From a virus, in the IMG/VR virus record IMGVR_UViG_3300020445_000007, positions 1-44,194 of that record: a stretch of DNA of 44,194 nt, one strand, 5' to 3'. The translations under genes were made by a program, and so were the position numbers. Positions 3,600-28,642 of this stretch are shown in pieces. The notes under the pieces are model-generated. The model had not been told where the DNA came from and searched no databases. It worked only from the letters and a program-made list of their open reading frames with translations. Position 1 is the first letter of the stretch. Each line of letters starts with the position of its first letter.

Positions 3600-6500
3600 T
3601 TATGAGCAAGTAGGGTTACAATCACCTAAGTATGAATAAAGAATTGGCCAAGGTGCAGGAACCTGGAAGTCCAGTGTCCTTGGTGTGATACCATCAGTTA
3701 CCTTGACTTGTGCTATTCCATCCATACCTATAATAGGTTGTTCTGGGTGATTACGATCTCTCAATGGTTTGATAAAGTTGCAGAAGTAATCGTTAGATGG
3801 TGTAACGCAAGCACCGTTCTGTGTGTATGCGAAATCATATGTGTGATCCTGACAAGGATCAGCAACTGCTGTAAGGTTAATCAAGTCAGTAAGTGTGAAT
3901 GGTGAACCTATCAACTCTACCCACAATGTGTATACCTTTTGAGTACCACGTGCAGGGAAGATAGCAGGTTGAATATCATTCTTAACAGAGAAGTCAACTG
4001 GCATATTGATAGAGGTGTCACCACGGAAGGGACACTCACGTAAGAGTCCAGTTGCTGCTGCTAATTGACCTGTGTATGTGCTAAAATCACCTGTGTTAAC
4101 AACAGTAGGACCGTTAGCGTGTGTAGCATTATTAAGAGTGAAGATGGTTCTAGTACCACCGTCAGTTGTTTCCATATATGGGAACTCATTAATGATACGC
4201 ATTCTCCAAGTAAATGTACCAGCATCAATTGTGTATGATACAGTTACATCCTGTGTCTGGTTGTTAGTAACAGAGAAATTCTGTGCACCCTTATAGTAAT
4301 CTTGTATCTGTAATGAATTAATGTCAATGTATGGTAGTGCACTCAATGGTGAACCAGCAACGTCAATCACGAATGAACGTGTAAGAATGTTACCGAAGTA
4401 ATCACCACAAGTTAATGCAGTATCTACAAAGCCATCAACGTGACGTAAGTATCCATTAGATAGGGTACCAGTCCATCCATTAGAATACTCGTACCACCAC
4501 ATACCCAACTGAGGTGGGTTAGCAATAACACTAATCTCATTAGATAGTGATGAGTATGATCCGTTGTAAAGATACAACTGGAATGAATATGGTTCGTTTA
4601 CACCAGATGGAATACCATTACAAGGAATATCAGTTGCACGAATAACATTACCAGAGTTGTCTAGAGGTGGTACTAACCCTGATGGGTTTTGGATAGGTAC
4701 TTCAACAGCATATCCACCGTACATACTACGTAATGGGAACTCTTCAGTAGTACTGATGTAGTTACCTACGTATACACCATTTCCTCCTTCAGTTGGAGAA
4801 TAGTCAACAGTAACATCATTACGAGCATCTACCCTAGATCTATAGTAATTAGATGCTAGTGGTACATAATCAGGATATGTTTCATACTGTGTCTTCCAAG
4901 CGAATGACTTAGTACCTGTAGCAGTATCGTAAGTGAATGACTTACTGAACCAAATGTACTCAATGTTCTGGTCAGTACAGACTAACTGTACAGGGAAGCG
5001 ACCATTCTTAGGATCCTTATCAGCAGTTAGATAAGGAGTAGTGTTTGGATAATGTGTTTCTCCACCGTACTCAGTATTTGCAGTGAATAGGTTAGCAGTA
5101 ATTGCGTTAGCACCACTGTACATAGTCAGTGCTGGCTGTGCAGGTAGTGCAGGTAAATTGCTAACTGTTAATTGTACAGTAGATGTAATGATTGCATTGT
5201 AAGTAGTAGTAAAGTCTAAGTGCTGTGATGCAAATGTAGTACCACCAGACTGACCGAACCAGATACTTGCTAGACTATATGACTCAGGTATATAAACCTC
5301 AGCCCAAGCACCAGCAGATCCTGGTGTTCCATACGTACGTACGTTAGTAGTACTTGCAGAAGCAGTAGCACCTAATCTAAATTCAAATGTCTTACCAGTC
5401 CAAGATGAATCACTAAGATTAAATCTATAGAACGCACCCTTAGGTACTTCAAATACAGTAGAACCACCAGCATTAACTTGAACCTGATAGTCAGCACCAA
5501 CTGCTACTAGATCATATGTTACTCTCCAACGCATCTTGCAACGGAAGAACGCATTAGCAAACTTCCACCACTTATTAACAACAAGATGAGAGAATCCCAT
5601 CTCACGTCCTGTTACGTCCTCATACTTCTCAACGTATGCGTAATGTGTATTCTTATTATCTACATTATTCTCGAACCAGTCTCCTTCCTCATATCCTGAG
5701 CTAGTTGCAGCAGCAAGTTCATTTAGATTGTACCACTGACTACCACCACCTTTGTCACCATACAGTTGCCAGAATGGTACGTACTCAAACTTATCATTGT
5801 CAAACTGAGTCTGAGTAAACATAGTACTCAATGACTTGTAGAACAATGGACGTGAGTACCAGTTCTGATTAACCCAAGACACATCGTCGTTAGGCTCTCC
5901 GTGAACTGTATATACTGTATTGTAATCAACTACCTTACTAGTAGCATCGTAGACCATTTCTACGTCTGATGTATTAGTAGTAACATTGGTTAGTTGAATC
6001 GTATACTCCTGAGTTTGCCCAGAAATATTTTCTTCAACTGATAATGTTAGGTTAAGTGTTTCTGTATTGGTTAGAGTACCAGATAATATACCAGTCTCAG
6101 TGTCAAATGTTAGACCAGTAGTAGCAATTGATGCAGAACTACTTAGAGTATAATCTCTATCAACAATAGTTTCAGCAGCAAATGTTCTAAGGAATGATAC
6201 ACCTAACTGTATGTTAACAGCCTGTCCTAAATTAAAGGTACCTAATGAACCAGCAGGAGTATACCAAGTAGTTAATAGGTCAATGTATGGTGTAACAGCA
6301 CCTCTAGTTACTGGCTCATCTGCGTGGTTATGATCTGTTCCTCTATCTACTGGGAGTTGTAGTATCTCTGTACCTTCACCCTCTCCAGCTAATTCTTGTT
6401 GCTCAGTCTGATACCACAATTTGTTATTTGCACTCTCTTGTTGCCAAGTCCAAATACCATCCATTGCCTGATGAGTTCCAGTAACATTAGAAACCTTCAA

Positions 6501-9500
6501 TAGGTTACCACCAACCTCACTAGATTGAGCAGTGAATGATGCCTCTGCTGGAGTGATCTGGAAACTAGTGTTAGCAGAATCTACGTCAGTAATTGGATGC
6601 CAAGTATATTGTAGGGCATTGAATTCAACACCACCTACATCATATACGAATGAATCACCCTCGTATGCTGTGTCACCAGGGAAGATAGGATCTGACTTGA
6701 ATGTATCACCAGCAATATATGGGAATGCAGGGTCACCGTTATCATCTTCAGTAATGAAGTATGCATAGGTACCATTTGGATAGTCAGGAGTCTTACAATA
6801 GCGACCATTTCTCTTATCTAAGTCACCTACGATAAGTCTCTCACCCATATTAGCGTGATTGTAGCAGAAATAGAATAGTGCTTGTGGTGCATCAACAGCA
6901 GGAGTAACTTCCACTGATCTTAGAGTTGCAGCATCAAAGCCAGCAACATAAGCAGCATAATCTACTACTGCATCTTCTAACTTATAAACTACACCAGCAG
7001 TATAAACTGCGTTAATATCTTGTGCGTTCTGTCCACTAACGTGCCAACCCTGTGATACACCATCACCATAAACAGAGAAGAGCATAGCGTGAGTATCATT
7101 AGATGCATCAGATAGGTTAAAGATATACTTTCTACCCTTTCTAAAGTTGAAAGAAGGTTTCTCTACAGTACCATCTAATCCAGTACCACTAATGTAGTAG
7201 CGATTACCACTACCAGAGGTTACAGCAGCTGATACAACCACTGTGTAAGTTGTTTCTAATCCATCGTTATCATTACCAGCATATTCAAAGTCTTCATTGA
7301 ATGACTTATATGGATATGATACAGTAGAAGGACGGTTGAGATATCCATCAGGTGTTCTACCTACCAATTTCTGCATATATCCTGGCTTAAGACGAACAAC
7401 AGAACTAGAACTATTCGTCTCATCCTGATAACCATATGGTCCGTAGATAGGATAACCATCAAATGCTATTCCTAAGATCTTAGAGTGTCCATTAGCGTGT
7501 CTCCTGTAGTCACCTTGAATATTAGTATTAGTTGTAATAGCATCACCCATCTTGGAATGATTATTACATACGTAATGAAGATCAGCAGGTGCATCTAAAG
7601 GAACTATAATAGTTACAGATCTAGTTGTTGCAACGTCAAATGATGAGACATATGTAACAGCATCAACAGAGACACCATTAAGTCTGTATGTTACACCATC
7701 GTTATACTTAACACCACCACTGTGTACACCATCATCTGTACTAGAGAAGTATAATGGGTGAGTGTCATTGGAGGTATCATCTTGATTAAAGATGTATGTA
7801 TTACCCTTAGTGAATTCAAGTGTAGGTTGCTCAGTAGTAACACCAGCAGCACTTCTTAAGAAGTAACCATTAGCACTACCTGAACCAAAGTCATTGTTAC
7901 CAGCAGTCTTAACATCAACAGTTACGACCCAATTAATAGTTTGATATCCTAGATCGAAGTAACTATTGGCAATATATGTGGATCCAGTACGAACAGCTTC
8001 ATCCTCATATGATTCTAATAACTTACTAGAGTTATATCCATATACATTTGCTGCATTAGGATAACCACCGTATGTGTCAGCACCAGTTAAGTTCTCGTTA
8101 GTAACGTCATTGAATGTCCAACCAGGAGTTGGTCCACTCTCGTTACTGTAATGGTACATATACACACCAGTTGTGCTTATACCAAATGGTTTAACACTAC
8201 GTAGTGGTATGGCAACTGGAAGAGTTGTGGAGTGACCGTAATCAGTACCTCCTCTCCAGTTAAAGTCTTGGTCGAATGATTGATCAACAATACTATTTGG
8301 GTTACCAGCAGTAATTGCAATAGATGCTACAGCAGTTGCCTGTACACCACCAGCAACGTTTGGTGCTGCGATAGAAACAGTTGGAGCAGTTGAGTATCCA
8401 GTACCTGGGGTAGTTACATTTAATGCTGAGATATAACCATCAAGAACCGATAGGGTTGCGGATGCTTGAGCACCTGCACCACCTCCACCTCCAGTGAAGC
8501 TAACAGTACAAGTGGTATATCCAACGCCAGGAACATCAATAGTAATTGCATCAAGAACACCAGTTTGTGTACCAATATCACATCCAGCAGCTGCAGGTTC
8601 TTCAAAGACTGGGTTTGCAGATGCACTACCACCGTAAGCTACAGGATCACCATAGAAGTAATCTCCAATAACGTACGGGAATACAGGAGTTGCTGACGAA
8701 TTAAACGTCATAAAGTATGCGTATGTACCACCTGGGAAGTCAGGAGTAATACAGAATCTACCGTTTCTACGGTCTAAATGAATTGATTCTCCAGCAGTAT
8801 TAGTACCCGTCTTCAATTCATAATCCTGTATAAAGGATCCCATTGGGTAAGTATTTGTATTAGGAGCATAACCAACAGGTTCAGTCAGGGTAATAGTACC
8901 CGTCATTGCTTGGTGTGCTTCGCAGACGTAATAGTAAGTGCCAGGATATGTTGTAGATGTGTTCCACAATACAGTAGCATTATGGTTACCATTGTTAGTT
9001 ACTGTTGCAACTACCTGCGCAGGGTTGTAAGGAGCAGGTACTTTCTGAATCCAGAATGGATGGTTAACAGTTGTACCACCACCGCCACCAGGAGCAGATA
9101 CTGTAATAGTTCCAACCATACTACCGTGGTATTCGCACTGGTAGTAGTAAGTACCAGCAGTTGTTGGAGTCCAACTAACAGTACCACTCTGTGTACCTTG
9201 GTTAGTTGCACCACTTACCTGATTTCCAGTACCAGTACCAGCAGCAGTCTTTAGATAGAATGGATGTCCACTAGCAGATACTGTAAAGTTAATAGTATCA
9301 CCTTCATAGAATGTTAATCCTGGATCAGCACCATTTTGGTTACCATTTCTATCAGATCCAGAGATTGTATAGTCATTAGAGTTAGATGCTGTAACAACTA
9401 AGTTATAAGTTTGAGGAGTAGATCCACCACCACCACCTGTGACATAAGATGCGTTAACGTTGAAGATAAGGTTGTCACCAACATTAGCAGCAATACTTAC

Positions 9501-12500
9501 ATCAGTACCAGAGTTTGATGAACCACCTGTTGCAGTGAACAGATAGTCATTACTATCAGATGCAGTAACATCCCAAGTGTAGTTTACAGGAGTGTATGGA
9601 GTACCTGAACGAACAGATCTTACATCATAAGCAGATATCATCCTTGCTAATGTTGTATTCGATGCGGGATCATCATATCCAATTGGACCATAGATGGGAT
9701 AACCATCCATAGCGTATCCAACTATAGGTGAGTGATGAGTTGCATTTATAATATCTGATGTGGTATGTGATGGTAACGCAGCAGAGTTTGTATTTGTAGT
9801 AACAGATGCAGCACCACCATACCCTGAATACAATGAGCAATAGTAATAAAGGTTAGCTGCTTCAGGTTGCACCTGTAAGTATGTACCAGTACCAGCCTGA
9901 CCATCACCAGGAGTACCCTGATACTTAATACCTGTTAAGTACTCACTACCACCTTGGATGTGAATACCATCCTGTGAATCTGCTAATCTAAATGGGTATC
10001 CAGTATTAGTAGAGTCACTCTGATCGAAGTAATATGTATTACCTTCTGATAAAATAAGGTTAGGTGTCTGATTACCATCTAAGTAGTACCTATTACCACC
10101 AGCAGTATTAACTACAGTGACAACATAGTTTGTAGTTGATCCTTTCCAAGTATTGATTAGGAAGTCACCAGTAATGTAGTAGTATGCTCCATCAGTATTA
10201 ACTATACCTGTACCTTCGTCAGCACCGAATGCAGTTCTAGTAGTATACTTATCAAAGGCATATCCAGTAGGACAGTTATATCCAGAAGGTAAGTTAACAC
10301 CACTACCGTGACTCCAGTTACGTATACTAACACCGTTCTTGGTAAGACCAAGCATATCGTAAGCAAATCCTTGAGTTGATGTAGGAGTATCAGCAGTAAC
10401 GTTCCTACCACCACGATATGTTATTGTATGATTATATCCTTTCGGTAATATTGAATAAGAGTTGTTTGCGTTAGGGAAGACACCATATAATGCAGGCTGT
10501 GGTAAGTTATCAGCAACCTGTGTTAGTGCTCTACTAACTGTGTTCAAGTTACCAGTTGTAACAGATCCACCACCAGATACAAAGTCATTGTCTGGATTGT
10601 GTGCAGGATTATTAACTGGTGCAGATGCATTAGCAATACCAACAGTAGGTGCTACAGTATATCCTGAACCTGGACTATTAATAGTGACAGCAGTAACAAC
10701 ACCATCAACCACAACTGCGGTTGCAGATGCACCAAGTCCTCCACCTCCAGTGAAGGTAATTGTTGGTAAATCTAGAGGGTTGTATCCGTGACCACCGTTG
10801 GTAACAGTAACACTTTGTATACCACCACCAGTAAGTGAGATAGTTGCAGTTGCAGTTGCACCAACACCATCTCCAGTAAGGACTACGGTAGGTGCTACTG
10901 TGTATCCAGAACCAGCTTGATCAATGTTAATACCTGTGACAGCACCACCAGTTAGTGTGATAGTTGCTGATGCAGCAGCGTCTACTCCACCACCACCTGA
11001 GAAACTAACAACAGGTGCTACAGTATATCCTGAACCCTGTTGACTTAGAGTAAGGTTAGAAACATATCCAGATGTTCCAGCTTTAGGGAATGTACCGTAA
11101 AGACCTGGAGCAGGATGATTGTCACTAACAAGATTAAATAATCCACCTTCTTTATGGTATGCAGCAGTAGGTGATCCAGCAGATGTTACCCATACATCAG
11201 AAATCACATCCTGAGATATAATACCAATAGGAGTACGAACTTGAACTAAATTACCAATAACAGGGTTGAACCTAGAAAATTCAGATCCCAAGTTAAATGT
11301 TATAACATTACTTGCTTGACCTACCGCAACAGTAAGGTTAACACCATCTAGTGTTATCTCATCTAGACTGTTATTAGGATAGGTCTGAACACTACCACCA
11401 CCAAATTCATAACTAACAGGTGATGCATTACCACCATTATATTGACGACTGTAATCCCAATCAAGTGGTCTACGTAACCAAGCTTTTGCTAACTTAGGAA
11501 GTGATTGACCACCTTCATAAGTATAATTCTGAAGATATGCCATCTTCGTAGCCCACTGGAGTAGAATACCAGCAACAATAGGACCAGAGAATGATGTACC
11601 ATCAGTACAAGCATAGTAAGAAGAACTTACTTGGTTGTATACAGTATTACTATTCCAATAGTATTGTGGGACATATACTGATTCACCAGGAGCACTAGTA
11701 GTAATAGTACCGTAGTTAGAGAACGCAGAGAATGTATTAGCCCAAGATGTAGCACCAACGGTTATCTTACCATCGAGACTCTCTTGTCCAATCTCCATAT
11801 TCCACTTGTTATCCTTCGGACCATTAGAACGAACACCAGGTAAGAATTTACCTTGATATCCTTCATAGGATGAACCACCTATTGTATAGAATCCATTACC
11901 AGCAGAACGTACAAGAATGATGTGGTTAGCTACAAGATAGTTTTCATAGTCATCAAACAATGTGTCACTACCCAATCCAGTATCAAATCCAGGTTCGTTC
12001 TTAGGAACATAAGGATATGAAGGACCAGGTGCTGTTGTTCCTAATGATGCGTTAACAATGGCAGGTCTATAGTTACCTTTCCAATTAGCGTGAGCAGGAT
12101 TATTGTGATTAACAATTGCTAAGATAGCATATGCAAATCTACTTGAAAATGTTGAGTACTCAGATCCTAATTCATTAAAAACTTTTAGAGAATATATTTT
12201 AGACTTCTTGGATACACCAAAGGTTCTACCAGCAGCAAAGATAGCACACTCTGTACCGTGACCTGAATCATCCTCATTACTATTTGCTACACCGTTGAGT
12301 GTGATACCTGAGTTATACCCTGGAACCTCATACACACGATAATTTGCTTGTTCTGTCGCACCATTTAAATCGGATGCGTAATCTGGGTGATACAATTCTG
12401 GGTGTAGGTTAGCACCAGCAGATCCAGTTGGTCTGCTACATCCACGAACACCAGTGTCAATAACATATAAGTCTGAATTCTCTCCGTCTTCGGTCAATGA

Positions 12501-13487
12501 ATATAGACCATATCCTAAACCATCCTGATACTGCGAAATTCTTTGTAAGTACCACTTATTAAACAACGTAAACTTCATCGATCTTGTCGTTGAAGGTAAC
12601 GAAGAACCTGAAAGACCTAAGCCTGGAGTAGTATCTTCATAAAGATATAGTTCTAAAGGTGTAGTTGCAGTAATTGGAATAGCGATGTAAGCACCATTAC
12701 CATTGCCACCACTGTTACCAGAGCCAGGAGTACCAACTCTTACAACACCAGTAGTATATTCTACACCACCATTATGTACACCATCTGGAGTAGTAGAAAA
12801 GCACCACTTATAGTTTAAGTTAGAAGCATCTCTTACCCAAATATAAACTACAGTACCTGGAACTAGGTAATCTATCTGATAAGATTCATAGACCAAACCA
12901 CCAGCATAGTATCCTAATTTAGGACCAAAGCTACCATTATTAACAACACCTTCATAGGTTGGAGTGGAAGTACTTCCAGTGTAGGGAACAACATTACCAT
13001 ATGCAAAGGGATCTACCTGTTGCTCTAAGTTTGGAATACTATCGCCTTCTTGCGCAATTGCAGTAGCAATTTCTGTTCTTGTAGGGGAATTAAATGTTAA
13101 AGTACCGTGCTCAGTCTTAGGGTCTGTTACTGCGTCTGGAGGGGGAGTTACTTCTGCGGAAAATTTTGTTGCGTCTGCGTGATTAATATGCGACTCTGGG
13201 TTCATCCAGTGTGATATAGCTTCTTCAGTTGCTGATACGTCATCTTTTGGGATTCTAATCTCTTTATCCCAACGAGCACCTATTACTTCAGGAAAATCTA
13301 CGTTACTCTTTAAAACTTCAATATAATTCTGATCCTTTCCAGGAAAATCCAAAAACACTTGGTTAAGTGCTCCAAGATCGTGTGCCTCTATCAGCGACGT
13401 AAAACGTTGTTTCGCACGTTCAATGACGGCTCTTGTATCGGTCTCTTTCGATACCGTAACAATAAGTCTGCCTTCCTCTTTTTGCAT
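3600..13487 (-). CDS. Giant virion protein: subtilase + cupredoxin-like + YHYH domains
   Basis: 3295 aa. Residues 1-100 look like an I9-type protease propeptide. Residues about 330-660 are a subtilisin-family (S8) protease: D344 in YVIDTG, H410 in DSGHGTE, oxyanion N531 in RSAGNG and nucleophile S632 in DGTSFSGP, all in canonical order. GxGY-type beta repeats lie at about 806-956 and 1640-1730. Four cupredoxin-like segments have an upstream His and a C-x2-H-x2-M motif: H1408/C1451/H1454/M1457, H1476/C1522/H1525/M1528, H1910/C1974/H1977/M1980, H2133/C2208/H2211/M2214. Two YHYH-like domains carry DGYPIYGP (about 1251-1268 and 1997-2017). Residues around 2450-2500 show an FDTETGILSGT (He_PIG-like) motif; the rest is beta-rich. 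No signal peptide. It sits among fibre genes behind a late-type promoter, so it is probably virion-borne. Copper binding and protease activity are inferred. Confidence 0.85.
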   Translation of the reverse strand: MQKEEGRLIVTVSKETDTRAVIERAKQRFTSLIEAHDLGALNQVFLDFPGKDQNYIEVLKSNVDFPEVIGARWDKEIRIPKDDVSATEEAISHWMNPESHINHADATKFSAEVTPPPDAVTDPKTEHGTLTFNSPTRTEIATAIAQEGDSIPNLEQQVDPFAYGNVVPYTGSTSTPTYEGVVNNGSFGPKLGYYAGGLVYESYQIDYLVPGTVVYIWVRDASNLNYKWCFSTTPDGVHNGGVEYTTGVVRVGTPGSGNSGGNGNGAYIAIPITATTPLELYLYEDTTPGLGLSGSSLPSTTRSMKFTLFNKWYLQRISQYQDGLGYGLYSLTEDGENSDLYVIDTGVRGCSRPTGSAGANLHPELYHPDYASDLNGATEQANYRVYEVPGYNSGITLNGVANSNEDDSGHGTECAIFAAGRTFGVSKKSKIYSLKVFNELGSEYSTFSSRFAYAILAIVNHNNPAHANWKGNYRPAIVNASLGTTAPGPSYPYVPKNEPGFDTGLGSDTLFDDYENYLVANHIILVRSAGNGFYTIGGSSYEGYQGKFLPGVRSNGPKDNKWNMEIGQESLDGKITVGATSWANTFSAFSNYGTITTSAPGESVYVPQYYWNSNTVYNQVSSSYYACTDGTSFSGPIVAGILLQWATKMAYLQNYTYEGGQSLPKLAKAWLRRPLDWDYSRQYNGGNASPVSYEFGGGSVQTYPNNSLDEITLDGVNLTVAVGQASNVITFNLGSEFSRFNPVIGNLVQVRTPIGIISQDVISDVWVTSAGSPTAAYHKEGGLFNLVSDNHPAPGLYGTFPKAGTSGYVSNLTLSQQGSGYTVAPVVSFSGGGGVDAAASATITLTGGAVTGINIDQAGSGYTVAPTVVLTGDGVGATATATISLTGGGIQSVTVTNGGHGYNPLDLPTITFTGGGGLGASATAVVVDGVVTAVTINSPGSGYTVAPTVGIANASAPVNNPAHNPDNDFVSGGGSVTTGNLNTVSRALTQVADNLPQPALYGVFPNANNSYSILPKGYNHTITYRGGRNVTADTPTSTQGFAYDMLGLTKNGVSIRNWSHGSGVNLPSGYNCPTGYAFDKYTTRTAFGADEGTGIVNTDGAYYYITGDFLINTWKGSTTNYVVTVVNTAGGNRYYLDGNQTPNLILSEGNTYYFDQSDSTNTGYPFRLADSQDGIHIQGGSEYLTGIKYQGTPGDGQAGTGTYLQVQPEAANLYYYCSLYSGYGGAASVTTNTNSAALPSHTTSDIINATHHSPIVGYAMDGYPIYGPIGYDDPASNTTLARMISAYDVRSVRSGTPYTPVNYTWDVTASDSNDYLFTATGGSSNSGTDVSIAANVGDNLIFNVNASYVTGGGGGSTPQTYNLVVTASNSNDYTISGSDRNGNQNGADPGLTFYEGDTINFTVSASGHPFYLKTAAGTGTGNQVSGATNQGTQSGTVSWTPTTAGTYYYQCEYHGSMVGTITVSAPGGGGGTTVNHPFWIQKVPAPYNPAQVVATVTNNGNHNATVLWNTSTTYPGTYYYVCEAHQAMTGTITLTEPVGYAPNTNTYPMGSFIQDYELKTGTNTAGESIHLDRRNGRFCITPDFPGGTYAYFMTFNSSATPVFPYVIGDYFYGDPVAYGGSASANPVFEEPAAAGCDIGTQTGVLDAITIDVPGVGYTTCTVSFTGGGGGAGAQASATLSVLDGYISALNVTTPGTGYSTAPTVSIAAPNVAGGVQATAVASIAITAGNPNSIVDQSFDQDFNWRGGTDYGHSTTLPVAIPLRSVKPFGISTTGVYMYHYSNESGPTPGWTFNDVTNENLTGADTYGGYPNAANVYGYNSSKLLESYEDEAVRTGSTYIANSYFDLGYQTINWVVTVDVKTAGNNDFGSGSANGYFLRSAAGVTTEQPTLEFTKGNTYIFNQDDTSNDTHPLYFSSTDDGVHSGGVKYNDGVTYRLNGVSVDAVTYVSSFDVATTRSVTIIVPLDAPADLHYVCNNHSKMGDAITTNTNIQGDYRRHANGHSKILGIAFDGYPIYGPYGYQDETNSSSSVVRLKPGYMQKLVGRTPDGYLNRPSTVSYPYKSFNEDFEYAGNDNDGLETTYTVVVSAAVTSGSGNRYYISGTGLDGTVEKPSFNFRKGRKYIFNLSDASNDTHAMLFSVYGDGVSQGWHVSGQNAQDINAVYTAGVVYKLEDAVVDYAAYVAGFDAATLRSVEVTPAVDAPQALFYFCYNHANMGERLIVGDLDKRNGRYCKTPDYPNGTYAYFITEDDNGDPAFPYIAGDTFKSDPIFPGDTAYEGDSFVYDVGGVEFNALQYTWHPITDVDSANTSFQITPAEASFTAQSSEVGGNLLKVSNVTGTHQAMDGIWTWQQESANNKLWYQTEQQELAGEGEGTEILQLPVDRGTDHNHADEPVTRGAVTPYIDLLTTWYTPAGSLGTFNLGQAVNIQLGVSFLRTFAAETIVDRDYTLSSSASIATTGLTFDTETGILSGTLTNTETLNLTLSVEENISGQTQEYTIQLTNVTTNTSDVEMVYDATSKVVDYNTVYTVHGEPNDDVSWVNQNWYSRPLFYKSLSTMFTQTQFDNDKFEYVPFWQLYGDKGGGSQWYNLNELAAATSSGYEEGDWFENNVDNKNTHYAYVEKYEDVTGREMGFSHLVVNKWWKFANAFFRCKMRWRVTYDLVAVGADYQVQVNAGGSTVFEVPKGAFYRFNLSDSSWTGKTFEFRLGATASASTTNVRTYGTPGSAGAWAEVYIPESYSLASIWFGQSGGTTFASQHLDFTTTYNAIITSTVQLTVSNLPALPAQPALTMYSGANAITANLFTANTEYGGETHYPNTTPYLTADKDPKNGRFPVQLVCTDQNIEYIWFSKSFTYDTATGTKSFAWKTQYETYPDYVPLASNYYRSRVDARNDVTVDYSPTEGGNGVYVGNYISTTEEFPLRSMYGGYAVEVPIQNPSGLVPPLDNSGNVIRATDIPCNGIPSGVNEPYSFQLYLYNGSYSSLSNEISVIANPPQLGMWWYEYSNGWTGTLSNGYLRHVDGFVDTALTCGDYFGNILTRSFVIDVAGSPLSALPYIDINSLQIQDYYKGAQNFSVTNNQTQDVTVSYTIDAGTFTWRMRIINEFPYMETTDGGTRTIFTLNNATHANGPTVVNTGDFSTYTGQLAAATGLLRECPFRGDTSINMPVDFSVKNDIQPAIFPARGTQKVYTLWVELIGSPFTLTDLINLTAVADPCQDHTYDFAYTQNGACVTPSNDYFCNFIKPLRDRNHPEQPIIGMDGIAQVKVTDGITPRTLDFQVPAPWPILYSYLGDCNPTCS
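6840..9900 (-). repeat. Cupredoxin-like and YHYH domain duplications in the giant protein
   Basis: Reading with the gene: a degenerate cupredoxin-like copy (LYYYCSLYSGYGG, ligand His replaced by Tyr), YHYH copy 1, two intact copper motifs, an intact third motif followed by YHYH copy 2, and a fourth intact motif. The order cupredoxin then YHYH occurs twice, so the pair seems duplicated as a block. Confidence 0.7.
10615..11085 (-). repeat. GxGY-type tandem repeats in the giant protein
   Basis: Four units of about 35-40 residues share GSGYTVAPxV, a GGGG or GDG turn, and A-x-A-T-I/V strands, followed by a V-T-x-(I/V) strand. A further pair is at about 8290-8575. Related units occur in the gp5-like and gp53 proteins. 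Confidence 0.8.
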
Positions 13488-13521: not shown

Positions 13522-13529
13522 TATTTAGT
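13522..13529 (-). promoter_or_regulatory. Late-promoter-like box ACTAAATA
   Basis: ACTAAATA lies 35 nt upstream of the giant-protein ATG and contains the TAA stop of the PKHD oxygenase gene. It matches T4 late TATAAATA at 6 of 8 positions and is identical to boxes at 28666 and 33299. Confidence 0.5.
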
Positions 13530-14199
13530 AAGCTTTATAACGCATCAAAGCATTCAGTTGTTCATCCAAAGTTCTTGTCATACCATAATGAGGATCATCA
13601 GGAGAGGTTGCGTTAGGATAAAGTTTATGTAGTTCAGTTTTTGTCTCATAATTAAGGGTTGCAATCCGTCGATCATCATCACAACGGAACATTGATGTAG
13701 TCCAAAAAACAGCTACGTTTCTTTCACCAGATGTTACCTCTTTGACCATATGCCTAGTTCCAGTGGGATAACTAAATGCCCATCCAGCAGGTAATTTAAC
13801 TTCAAGAGTTTCAGTACCGTGCTCTAAGACTAGTTCTCCTCCTTCATATTCATCTGGTTCGTTTAAAAATACAGTTGTACTAAAATCAGTTCTTGCTTGA
13901 CCACCCATAAAAGGTGAGTCGCAATGCCAATTATAATGCATACCCTCGGTATACTTAACGAATAAAGCTACGGTACTGGTACAGCCCCACATATAAAAAT
14001 TGGGTACTGTATGCTTCTGAAAATTATCCCAGATTATATTCCAAGCAGCCTTACTGTGCTCATCCTGCATCTCAACATTGTTTTTGATTTTCTTGTCATT
14101 AGCACCAGTCTTGGCACCATCAGTAAAATCAGAGAAACCATAAAAATCTTGAACGTGTTTAAGATTAACATCATTCAATAGCTCATAACGAAAAAACAT
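13525..14199 (-). CDS. 2OG-Fe(II) oxygenase, PKHD-type hydroxylase
   Basis: 224 aa, the usual size for PKHD/PiuC-like Fe(II)/2-oxoglutarate hydroxylases. The iron ligands appear as H92-x-D94 (NWHCDSPF) and H150 (TGTRHMV), with R160 (SGERNVAVFW) as the probable 2-oxoglutarate anchor. The family phrases FLNEPDEYEGGELVLEHG and KLPAGWAFSYPTGTRH are clear. Such enzymes hydroxylate proline or other residues of proteins; the phage substrate is unknown. It lies 2 nt after the tail-chaperone-like gene and before the giant protein, so a virion protein substrate is possible (inference). Its TAA stop lies inside the late-promoter-like box of the next gene. Confidence 0.88.
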   Translation of the reverse strand: MFFRYELLNDVNLKHVQDFYGFSDFTDGAKTGANDKKIKNNVEMQDEHSKAAWNIIWDNFQKHTVPNFYMWGCTSTVALFVKYTEGMHYNWHCDSPFMGGQARTDFSTTVFLNEPDEYEGGELVLEHGTETLEVKLPAGWAFSYPTGTRHMVKEVTSGERNVAVFWTTSMFRCDDDRRIATLNYETKTELHKLYPNATSPDDPHYGMTRTLDEQLNALMRYKAY

Positions 14200-14201
14200 A
14201 A

Positions 14202-14879
14202 TTAGGGCACAAATGTAGCGTCAGTAGGGGGAACTGGCCAACCAGTAAAGTTATTATAATCATATGGATCTGCTTGTTGAGACGGGAGATCTCTTAAACG
14301 TTTCCTGTATGTCTTCCAATTATCTTTAACTCTAGCAGCAGCAGGTACTTGAGCTGGGGGATCAGCAGCATAATGTTCCCATATATCTTCCAACATATAG
14401 AAATCAGTGTCTTGCATTAATTGATCTCTCATAGCACGAAGTGCTAGAAGATTCTCTGGAATTTGATTGTCAACGAAATATTTTCTCTGGTTCTCTGCAT
14501 CAAGTGCTGCTTGTTGCTCCGCATTATATGCAGTTTCGTACGTTGTACGAAGAGGAGTCAACGTGTTAACCAAAGTAGTTGCTTCATTAACCTTTGTAGA
14601 ATCATTAGTAGTAATAGCTACTTCACCACTTAGATCCTTATTTTCGGCAAGATACCAAACTGCTTCACCTACTGGATTATTTTCTTTCCAATAGTGAAGG
14701 CAAGTTAATTCATCTACACCAGCAACGTGGAATGTACCATTAATGGCAGGAAGAACTGTACTAGTCCAATCACTATCAGAGATAACAAATCCCTGTTGCT
14801 TACCAGTTGAATTTTTACCGCCGATAATTTTACTATCTACCCAGATAGTGAAATCGGCTTCTCCAAAATTACGAGCCAT
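14202..14879 (-). CDS. Tail-assembly-chaperone-like protein
   Basis: 225 aa. The C-terminal half (about 140-225) has the layout of the Phage_tail_APC family seen after fibre genes: a conserved R-x-x-R-D-Q-L helix (LRAMRDQLMQDTDFY), a Y-R-K-R-L-R-D-L-P helix, and a terminal W-P-V-P-P motif. The N-terminal 100 residues are not recognised. A central Ala/Glu-rich helix (about 115-140) may be a coiled coil. It overlaps the upstream oxygenase gene by 11 nt and is 2 nt from the next oxygenase, forming a three-gene set. By family analogy it may help fold or attach a fibre; the partner is unknown. Confidence 0.7.
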   Translation of the reverse strand: MARNFGEADFTIWVDSKIIGGKNSTGKQQGFVISDSDWTSTVLPAINGTFHVAGVDELTCLHYWKENNPVGEAVWYLAENKDLSGEVAITTNDSTKVNEATTLVNTLTPLRTTYETAYNAEQQAALDAENQRKYFVDNQIPENLLALRAMRDQLMQDTDFYMLEDIWEHYAADPPAQVPAAARVKDNWKTYRKRLRDLPSQQADPYDYNNFTGWPVPPTDATFVP

Positions 14880-15519
14880 TTAATAGATACCATCCTGTCA
14901 ATATGTATTTATCACCTGATAAAACTGTATTTCCCTTGTGTGTATGCGTAAAACCAGCAGGCCATACAACACAGGTTCCCCTTGTAGGTTTAATCCTTCT
15001 CTTCTGATCAAAAAATTCTGTCTCACCACCATCTTCTACATCATTTAAGTAAATCATCCAAACTAAAACACGTGGAGAATGAGATAAACCCATTGCTTCA
15101 TAGTGCCATACGTGATAACCACCACCCTCAGGAGTATGCTGAAACTTGATGACACTACTCATCATCGTTTCTGTTTCTAACTGTGGATACTTAAAGATAT
15201 AGTGTTGGGTAATCGATTTAAGATATTGTAAGGTAACGTTCTGTAAGGTAGGATTATTATGATTGATTAAAATTTGCTTATCATATCTACCAAGAGAACC
15301 TTGCGGAAACTGTACTCTACCATCAGCAACAGTTGTAGAATCTAACTTAGGAGTAACTATATCCGCAGCCTGCTCTAAAGTATCATACCAGTCAATATAC
15401 TGCTGGCATAAACCCTCTGGCATTAATCCTGGCCAGACTCCAATGAAATCACTGAACTCTGATTCTGTAACCTTGGAGTCTAACATCAACTCCATAGGTT
15501 TTATTGGTGCTAAATCCAT
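14869..15519 (-). CDS. 2OG-Fe(II) oxygenase, prolyl-4-hydroxylase-like
   Basis: 216 aa. The double-stranded beta-helix core is visible: GGGYHVWHYE gives an H139-x-E141 pair where most relatives have H-x-D, then LVWMIYLNDVEDGGETEFF, the G-x-x-V-V-W-P-A-G-F-T-H strand with the distal His (H192 or H194), and K204 (GDKYILTGW) as probable 2-oxoglutarate anchor. Glu in place of Asp is a conservative change that can be tolerated but is notable. The last codons overlap the start of the chaperone-like gene. Likely a protein hydroxylase; the substrate is unknown. It differs enough from the 224-aa enzyme that recent duplication is unlikely. Confidence 0.88.
   Translation of the reverse strand: MDLAPIKPMELMLDSKVTESEFSDFIGVWPGLMPEGLCQQYIDWYDTLEQAADIVTPKLDSTTVADGRVQFPQGSLGRYDKQILINHNNPTLQNVTLQYLKSITQHYIFKYPQLETETMMSSVIKFQHTPEGGGYHVWHYEAMGLSHSPRVLVWMIYLNDVEDGGETEFFDQKRRIKPTRGTCVVWPAGFTHTHKGNTVLSGDKYILTGWYLLNGS
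14906..14913 (-). promoter_or_regulatory. Late-promoter-like box GATAAATA
   Basis: GATAAATA (7 of 8 to TATAAATA) lies 27 nt before the ATG of the tail-chaperone-like gene, inside the end of the HxE oxygenase gene. It encodes Asp-Lys-Tyr there, so chance is possible. Confidence 0.4.
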
Positions 15520-27790: not shown

Positions 27791-28642
27791 TTAGAACCAA
27801 TCAGATGACCATTCACCTGATTGATCTCCCTCTGGTTGGGGTTGTCCACCACCACCAGTTGCAGGAATTGCAGTGGTTCCTTGTGGACCTCCACCTTGCT
27901 TACCTTCTTCTTGTCCTAAACGTTCTGTTGCCTCTAGCTCACTAACCATCTCTACATTGAAAGAGAATGTCATATAGAGTTTTCCGTCAGGGTTCTTAAC
28001 AATACCTGGTTGCTTATGCACCATATGACCCAACTGAGAAGGGAATATAACAACATCTCCTTCTTCTACGTTTAGAGTCATTTCCTCTTTATAGCATCCA
28101 TATCCACACATATCAGGATCGTAGAAATGCTTATTATAACGAGGTGCCTCAGAAAAGTTCTTAAGCGGGTTTATAAAAGTTGTTGACTGATGAAGTTCTG
28201 GGTCATATTGAACATACCAACAACCTGACAAATGTGAAGGTACGTGATTATGCTCTTCTTGGTTCTGACCAGGACCATATGCGTTAAACCACTGCTGTGC
28301 AACTAAAAATGCGTGAGGATAGAATTCTGCCATCTTAATGGCTTCTTGAATATTAGCAGAAATGTCCTGTAATAGAAGTCCAACTTCGATCTCGGTTTCC
28401 TTGGTATGGTCTACCATACTCTCATCAAAGAAGGATGTGTAACAATCACAATTCCAACAAGCATTTCCTCCTGTATCCCTACTATAACTATTCGACCCAT
28501 TTACTTCTTGATACCTTCTTGACAAAATCGGAAATACCGCATCTTTCCATTTGGCGTGATTCTGGAGTTTTCCCCGATATAGAAACATTGGGAATAACGA
28601 GAACAATCCATATTGGTCTAGTTTATTAGTTTGTTGGGCCAT
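27791..28642 (-). CDS. 2OG-Fe(II) oxygenase-like protein (2OG-FeII_Oxy_5 type)
   Basis: 283 aa. The core motif QEEHNHVPSHLSGCWYV (about 128-144, H131/H133) followed by GDVVIFPSQLGHMVHKQPG (H206) and KLYMTFSFNV matches the putative 2OG-Fe(II) oxygenase family often seen in marine phages. A Cys-rich patch (ACWNCDCY, 61-68, and CGYGC, 179-183) is unusual and could bind a metal. The last 50 residues are a Gly/Gln/Pro-rich tail ending in WSSDWF. It is monocistronic: a late-type box upstream and a strong terminator 20 nt after its stop. Its substrate is unknown. Confidence 0.8.
   Translation of the reverse strand: MAQQTNKLDQYGLFSLFPMFLYRGKLQNHAKWKDAVFPILSRRYQEVNGSNSYSRDTGGNACWNCDCYTSFFDESMVDHTKETEIEVGLLLQDISANIQEAIKMAEFYPHAFLVAQQWFNAYGPGQNQEEHNHVPSHLSGCWYVQYDPELHQSTTFINPLKNFSEAPRYNKHFYDPDMCGYGCYKEEMTLNVEEGDVVIFPSQLGHMVHKQPGIVKNPDGKLYMTFSFNVEMVSELEATERLGQEEGKQGGGPQGTTAIPATGGGGQPQPEGDQSGEWSSDWF

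Follow-up and report, generated by a model that had tools for sequence, protein, structure and literature searches.

Organization of the Giant Tail Protein

The window analyzed here, a virus record of 44 kb (44,194 nucleotides), contains tail genes, among them an ORF of 3,295 amino acids (positions 3600-13487, minus strand) that encodes a giant tail protein and carries all cupredoxin copies described below, each of them on the minus strand. Matches of this protein in PHROGs belong to the baseplate wedge subunit, tail fiber connector, and virion structural families. Near the N-terminus lies a degenerate cupredoxin-like copy (N; 12594-12947, residues 181-298), which lacks the ligands and is similar to the other copies and to 18 orthologs. 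It is followed by a subtilase (S8) region (11418-12530, minus strand, residues 320-690; Pfam PF00082, E-value 9.2e-22) with the motifs DTG, HGT, and GTSxS. The catalytic motifs of this domain are apparently intact; in relatives, subtilases are encoded by separate genes. Further downstream are a second degenerate copy (E; 9789-10133, residues 1119-1233) and a first YHYH-like segment, placed by eye (9588-9752, minus strand, approximately residues 1246-1300). Pfam PF14240 (YHYH) matches the giant protein with an E-value of 1.3e-36 in four stretches.

The next two copies are nested, an insertion that the initial annotation had overlooked. The first half of copy B (9414-9581, residues 1303-1358) aligns with the N-terminal half of the domain (20 orthologs) and contains strands in the AlphaFold2 (AF2) model; the second half (8880-9092, residues 1466-1536) carries the ligands H1476, C1522, H1525, and M1528. 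Between these halves, and joined to them by glycine-rich linkers on both sides, is a complete cupredoxin, copy A (9093-9410, residues 1360-1465; ligands H1408, C1451, H1454, and M1457). The AF2 model of the 242-residue nested stretch has a mean pLDDT of 91.6, with low confidence mainly near the linkers. The A-in-B arrangement recurs in the orthologs that span the region.

Copies C (7524-7937, residues 1851-1988; H1910, C1974, H1977, and M1980) and D (6825-7250, residues 2080-2221; H2133, C2208, H2211, and M2214) are of a longer type and are separated by a YHYH domain (7254-7523, minus strand, residues 1989-2078; best PF14240 stretch, 1998-2078). The last copy, X (5202-5522, residues 2656-2762), is again devoid of ligands. 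Beside the giant protein gene, two 2OG-Fe(II) oxygenase genes (phrog_61; 13525-14199 and 14869-15519, minus strand) flank a tail fiber assembly-like gene, and an ORF at 27791-28642 (minus strand) resembles a 2OG-Fe(II) oxygenase by eye.

Ligand Sets and Fold of the Cupredoxin Copies

Four segments combining an upstream His with C-x2-H-x2-M had been noticed in the initial annotation; they correspond to copies A, B, C, and D, and their true span, 6846-9266, differs by a few bases from the 6850-9270 given there. In 20,000 shuffles of the residues of the giant protein, the C-x2-H-x2-M motif occurred 0.0035 times on average and at most once, against four occurrences in the actual sequence, which excludes a chance origin. 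The fifth copy, described earlier as having lost its His residues, is copy E: its first His is replaced by Tyr, Met is gone as well, and Cys1217 alone is retained (YYYCSLYSGYG). With copies N and X, both absent from the earlier list, the number of degenerate copies in this phage is three.

By sequence profiles and predicted structure, copies A-D are true cupredoxin domains, modeled as eight-stranded sandwiches with the type-1 ligand set and a ligand loop of amicyanin length. PF00127 (Copper-bind) matches the whole giant protein with 22.1 bits, above the gathering cut-off of 21.2, and copy A in isolation with 19 bits, under the same cut-off of 21.2. Searches of the PDB with the domain profiles retrieved amicyanin (1.3e-5) and plastocyanin (1.9e-5), along with copper nitrite reductase (CuNIR), rusticyanin, auracyanin, and pseudoazurin. 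The best match of the short-type profile was amicyanin, so the amicyanin-like spacing of C-x2-H-x2-M, proposed from the sequence, was borne out. For the long type, no significant PDB match was obtained by sequence, the alignment of copy C, YHYH, and copy D gave zero matches against the PDB, and the best, weak hits were multicopper oxidases, with the first His aligned to a His of HPxHLH. Copies C and D are tied to the cupredoxin sequence family only via the short type, with which they align in hhalign at 99.4% (E-value 4e-21) with the ligands in register.

The structural models agree with this assignment. Copy C was modeled by AF2 at a pLDDT of about 90 and copy D with lower confidence. In Foldseek searches with the AF2 models of the nested pair and of C/D, the top PDB hits were CuNIR and laccases; the low TM-scores reflect the use of complete multi-domain models as queries. 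The first His stands ahead of a strand in each of the four copies, Cys is located at the end of a strand or immediately after one, and the second His and Met fall within the loop that follows; both the ligand order (His, Cys, His, Met) and the positions relative to the strands are those of a canonical cupredoxin. The membership in the type-1 copper family suggested from the ligands is thus supported by sequence profiles and by the predicted fold.

The phage domains share profile homology, ligand order, and, with amicyanin, motif spacing with the amicyanin/plastocyanin family. Unlike those free periplasmic or lumenal carriers, they are repeated domains of a phage tail protein, one of them inserted in another. 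The residue after the first His also differs: it is usually Asn in plastocyanin and azurin and Pro in multicopper oxidases, whereas in the phage it is Pro in copies A-C and Ala in copy D. The His-Pro context, as in HPxHLH, and the best Foldseek matches liken the copies to the type-1 domains of multicopper oxidases and CuNIR. Unlike in those enzymes, no HPxHLH or HxH for a type-2/3 center was noted in the ligand segments and no catalytic partner domain was found; no multicopper oxidase family was matched in the Pfam search of the giant protein.

Occurrence in Other Phages

The initial annotation presented the sites as belonging to a single giant protein. This holds for the protein itself and is too narrow in general, as the domain is a common tail and baseplate module in T4-like marine phages. 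With tblastn, the gp9 domain retrieved 332 phage records, nearly all of them cyanophages; copy A retrieved 180 phage records, and copy C with YHYH retrieved 399, including Methylophilales and Pelagibacter phages. Among isolates, the range of the domain is essentially marine. According to the annotated synteny, it ends gp9, beside a wedge protein, in S-ShM2, S-SM1, and S-MS29. In S-H9-1 it lies at the end of a subtilase, and in P-SSM2 two copies occur in the proximal tail fiber, adjoining a subtilase gene. As judged from these sequences, the domain is a module of the gp9 end, the adjoining wedge protein, proximal fibers, and tail subtilases in marine T4-like phages. Since gp9, wedge, fiber, and subtilase proteins carry it separately in relatives, we infer that the giant protein may combine, in fused form, modules encoded elsewhere by separate neighboring genes.

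The gp9 of S-SM1 matches PF07880 (T4_gp9_10_N), a family it shares with T4 gp9, the connector between baseplate and long tail fiber; unlike T4 gp9, the cyanophage protein terminates in a cupredoxin domain. The virion proteome of S-SM1 has been published (PMC3037559). S-CREM2 was considered as proof of a virion location and rejected, as its virion and wedge proteins, in the gp7-gp8 region, have no cupredoxin domain.

Seven loci in marine metagenome-assembled genomes (MAGs) were found by a scan of genome contigs with a single pattern containing Cys and His, which cellular relatives without the pattern would escape. The four loci checked with PHROGs all match phage tail families, and a cellular origin of the family is therefore disfavored. 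The contigs of these four (L111, L113, L115, and L117), which carry phage-type tail genes, are assigned to bacterial MAGs, and in L111 a phage major head protein gene lies beside the tail genes; the sequences are either prophage or phage DNA misassigned to a bacterial bin. Relatives of this phage have, in addition, a separate gene for a plastocyanin-like protein of 135 amino acids (L078 and L079, in the genomes of L005 and L002).

Retention of the Ligands among Homologs

The statement that all four ligands are kept in all four copies is correct for this phage and does not extend to all orthologs, some of which have copies B and C without sites. The four-ligand set is intact in copy A of 20/20 orthologs and in copy D of 16/16. 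In copy B, Cys and His are gone together in 5 of the 18 orthologs; in copy C, Cys, His, and Met have jointly disappeared in one lineage and the whole set in another relative. Partial sets are also present, as in some relatives copies B and C retain the first His although Cys and the second His are gone. In copy C of L012, the axial Met is replaced by Gln with His, Cys, and His retained (CTNHSKQ); axial Gln is a feature of stellacyanin-type sites.

A wider survey employed a ligand-blind profile, in which the ligand columns were masked, and yielded 264 unique domains. Of these, 167 had the complete set of ligands, 66 lacked every ligand, and 31 had partial sets, some of the latter being truncated domains. 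After clustering at 70% identity (70 clusters), the respective counts were 33, 31, and 6. Pairwise Fisher tests gave p <= 1e-13, values inflated by the relatedness of the sequences, although the 70%-identity clusters show the same picture. All 110 short-type domains were complete, the split copy B standing outside this count. Among gp9 proteins sampled via their non-cupredoxin part, the motif was present in 63/63 complete proteins, and three more ORFs stop at a contig end; as the gp9 ends are on average 73% identical, this invariance is weaker evidence than it appears. For the wedge protein, 52 sequences have a second copy without any of the four ligands; in the same 52, the upstream copy has C-x2-H-x2-M in 51, plus a recognized upstream His in 44. 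A bias due to motif searching was checked by refetching the orthologs through copy X, which returned nearly the same contigs, and gp9 through its N-terminal part.

Selective retention, which had been read from this single protein, is thus seen in orthologs, the ligand-blind survey, gp9, and the wedge protein: the ligands are mostly kept or lost as a set. Free variation of these residues among homologs, which would have spoken against metal binding, was rejected by the same data.

Possible Role of the Predicted Copper Sites

Judging from the conserved ligand sets, the intact predicted sites likely bind copper. Because the cytosol, in which phages are assembled, contains little free copper, loading would likely take place after lysis. 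In the scenario that we propose, the particle leaves the cytosol and the predicted sites then take up copper, probably as Cu(I); there is good reason to expect binding of this kind by the intact sites once the particle has exited the copper-poor cytosol. A loaded site would shape or rigidify the loop face by which cupredoxins meet their partners, and this face may thereby provide a contact that depends on the metal where baseplate, fiber, and host meet. A copper-loaded contact face at this junction is our tentative best guess for the use of the metal. Taken as a whole, a cupredoxin tail module with copper-binding intact sites used as a contact face is the interpretation that we moderately favor. 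Metal does not seem to be simply needed for folding, because the ligand-less sister copies keep the fold, and a use of the metal itself is argued by the fixed positions, which never lose the full set in our sample.

The main rival to the contact-face role is a redox function, with electron-transfer-competent sites conducting redox chemistry or sensing at the host surface, for instance in triggering adsorption or contraction. Among proteins of solved structure, the nearest relatives function in electron transfer, and the full type-1 set is kept including the axial Met, more than a zinc site with a structural role alone would require. However, Pfam revealed neither a reductase nor a cytochrome or partner domain in the giant protein, and Pro after the first His resembles multicopper oxidases rather than showing the usual Asn; we regard this role as possible but rather unlikely. 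That the domains are purely structural, i.e., sandwich spacers whose ligand residues are remnants or adventitious metal binders, agrees with the three copies in this phage and the 66 of 264 surveyed domains that lack the full set and nevertheless keep the sequence pattern of the fold. The mostly set-wise loss, together with the persistence of the set in gp9 (63/63), copy A (20/20), and copy D (16/16), makes such a vestigial state unlikely.

The virion copper could also act as a lure or cargo, aiding attachment or supplying metal, in analogy to the "Ferrojan horse" idea proposed for iron. HxH motifs that bind iron have already been discussed for phage tail fibers, including T4 gp37 and those of cyanophages (PMC11705849); like the cupredoxin sites, they are metal ligands on tail proteins, and they differ in the metal set, in the fold, and in where they sit on the particle. 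The essentially marine range of the domain among isolates fits such a role, but the sites are found on the baseplate-proximal gp9 and wedge proteins and not only at receptor-binding tips, and we consider it improbable. Mimicry of plastocyanin, by which the phage would tap or replace the photosynthetic electron transport of the host, might be suggested by the predominance of cyanobacterial hosts and by the presence of petE in some relatives. Yet the domains form part of tail and baseplate genes, petE is a separate gene of the same genomes, and the phages with matches include those of Pelagibacter and Methylophilales, hosts that have no photosystems. Since some hosts are thus not photosynthetic, this mimicry is disfavored and seems very improbable.

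A more far-reaching reading is that most marine T4-like cyanophage particles are copper metalloparticles, with tens of predicted type-1 sites each (gp9 plus wedge), the copper state of which would gate attachment or tail firing; we mention it as an unlikely, speculative possibility.

Relation to Previous Work and Implications

The fold and the site are known; their recurrent use as a tail module in marine phages appears to be undescribed in the open-license PMC papers that were searched. None of these papers links cupredoxins with the phage baseplate, and the only one in which the terms "cyanophage" and "cupredoxin" co-occur deals with Borgs. As far as we found, copper in phage tails has gone undiscussed, unlike YHYH and tail-fiber iron. 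The present proteins resemble phage YHYH proteins (PF14240) in that YHYH adjoins cupredoxin copies both here and in cyanophage wedge proteins. An earlier study of the YHYH domain (PMC7824862), in which cupredoxin, copper, and plastocyanin go unmentioned, predicted a site for Zn and a role as a hydrolase; phage YHYH domains are also discussed in PMC7029224.

The question is open to test in cultured phages such as S-SM1, S-ShM2, and P-SSM2, and the ligand-less sister domains of the same proteins offer built-in controls. Should the intact sites indeed be copper-binding, viruses of a class that is very abundant in the ocean would bear a redox metal on the structures used for infection, a metal-binding module would join the known parts of phage tails, and phage adsorption would be linked to marine copper chemistry.
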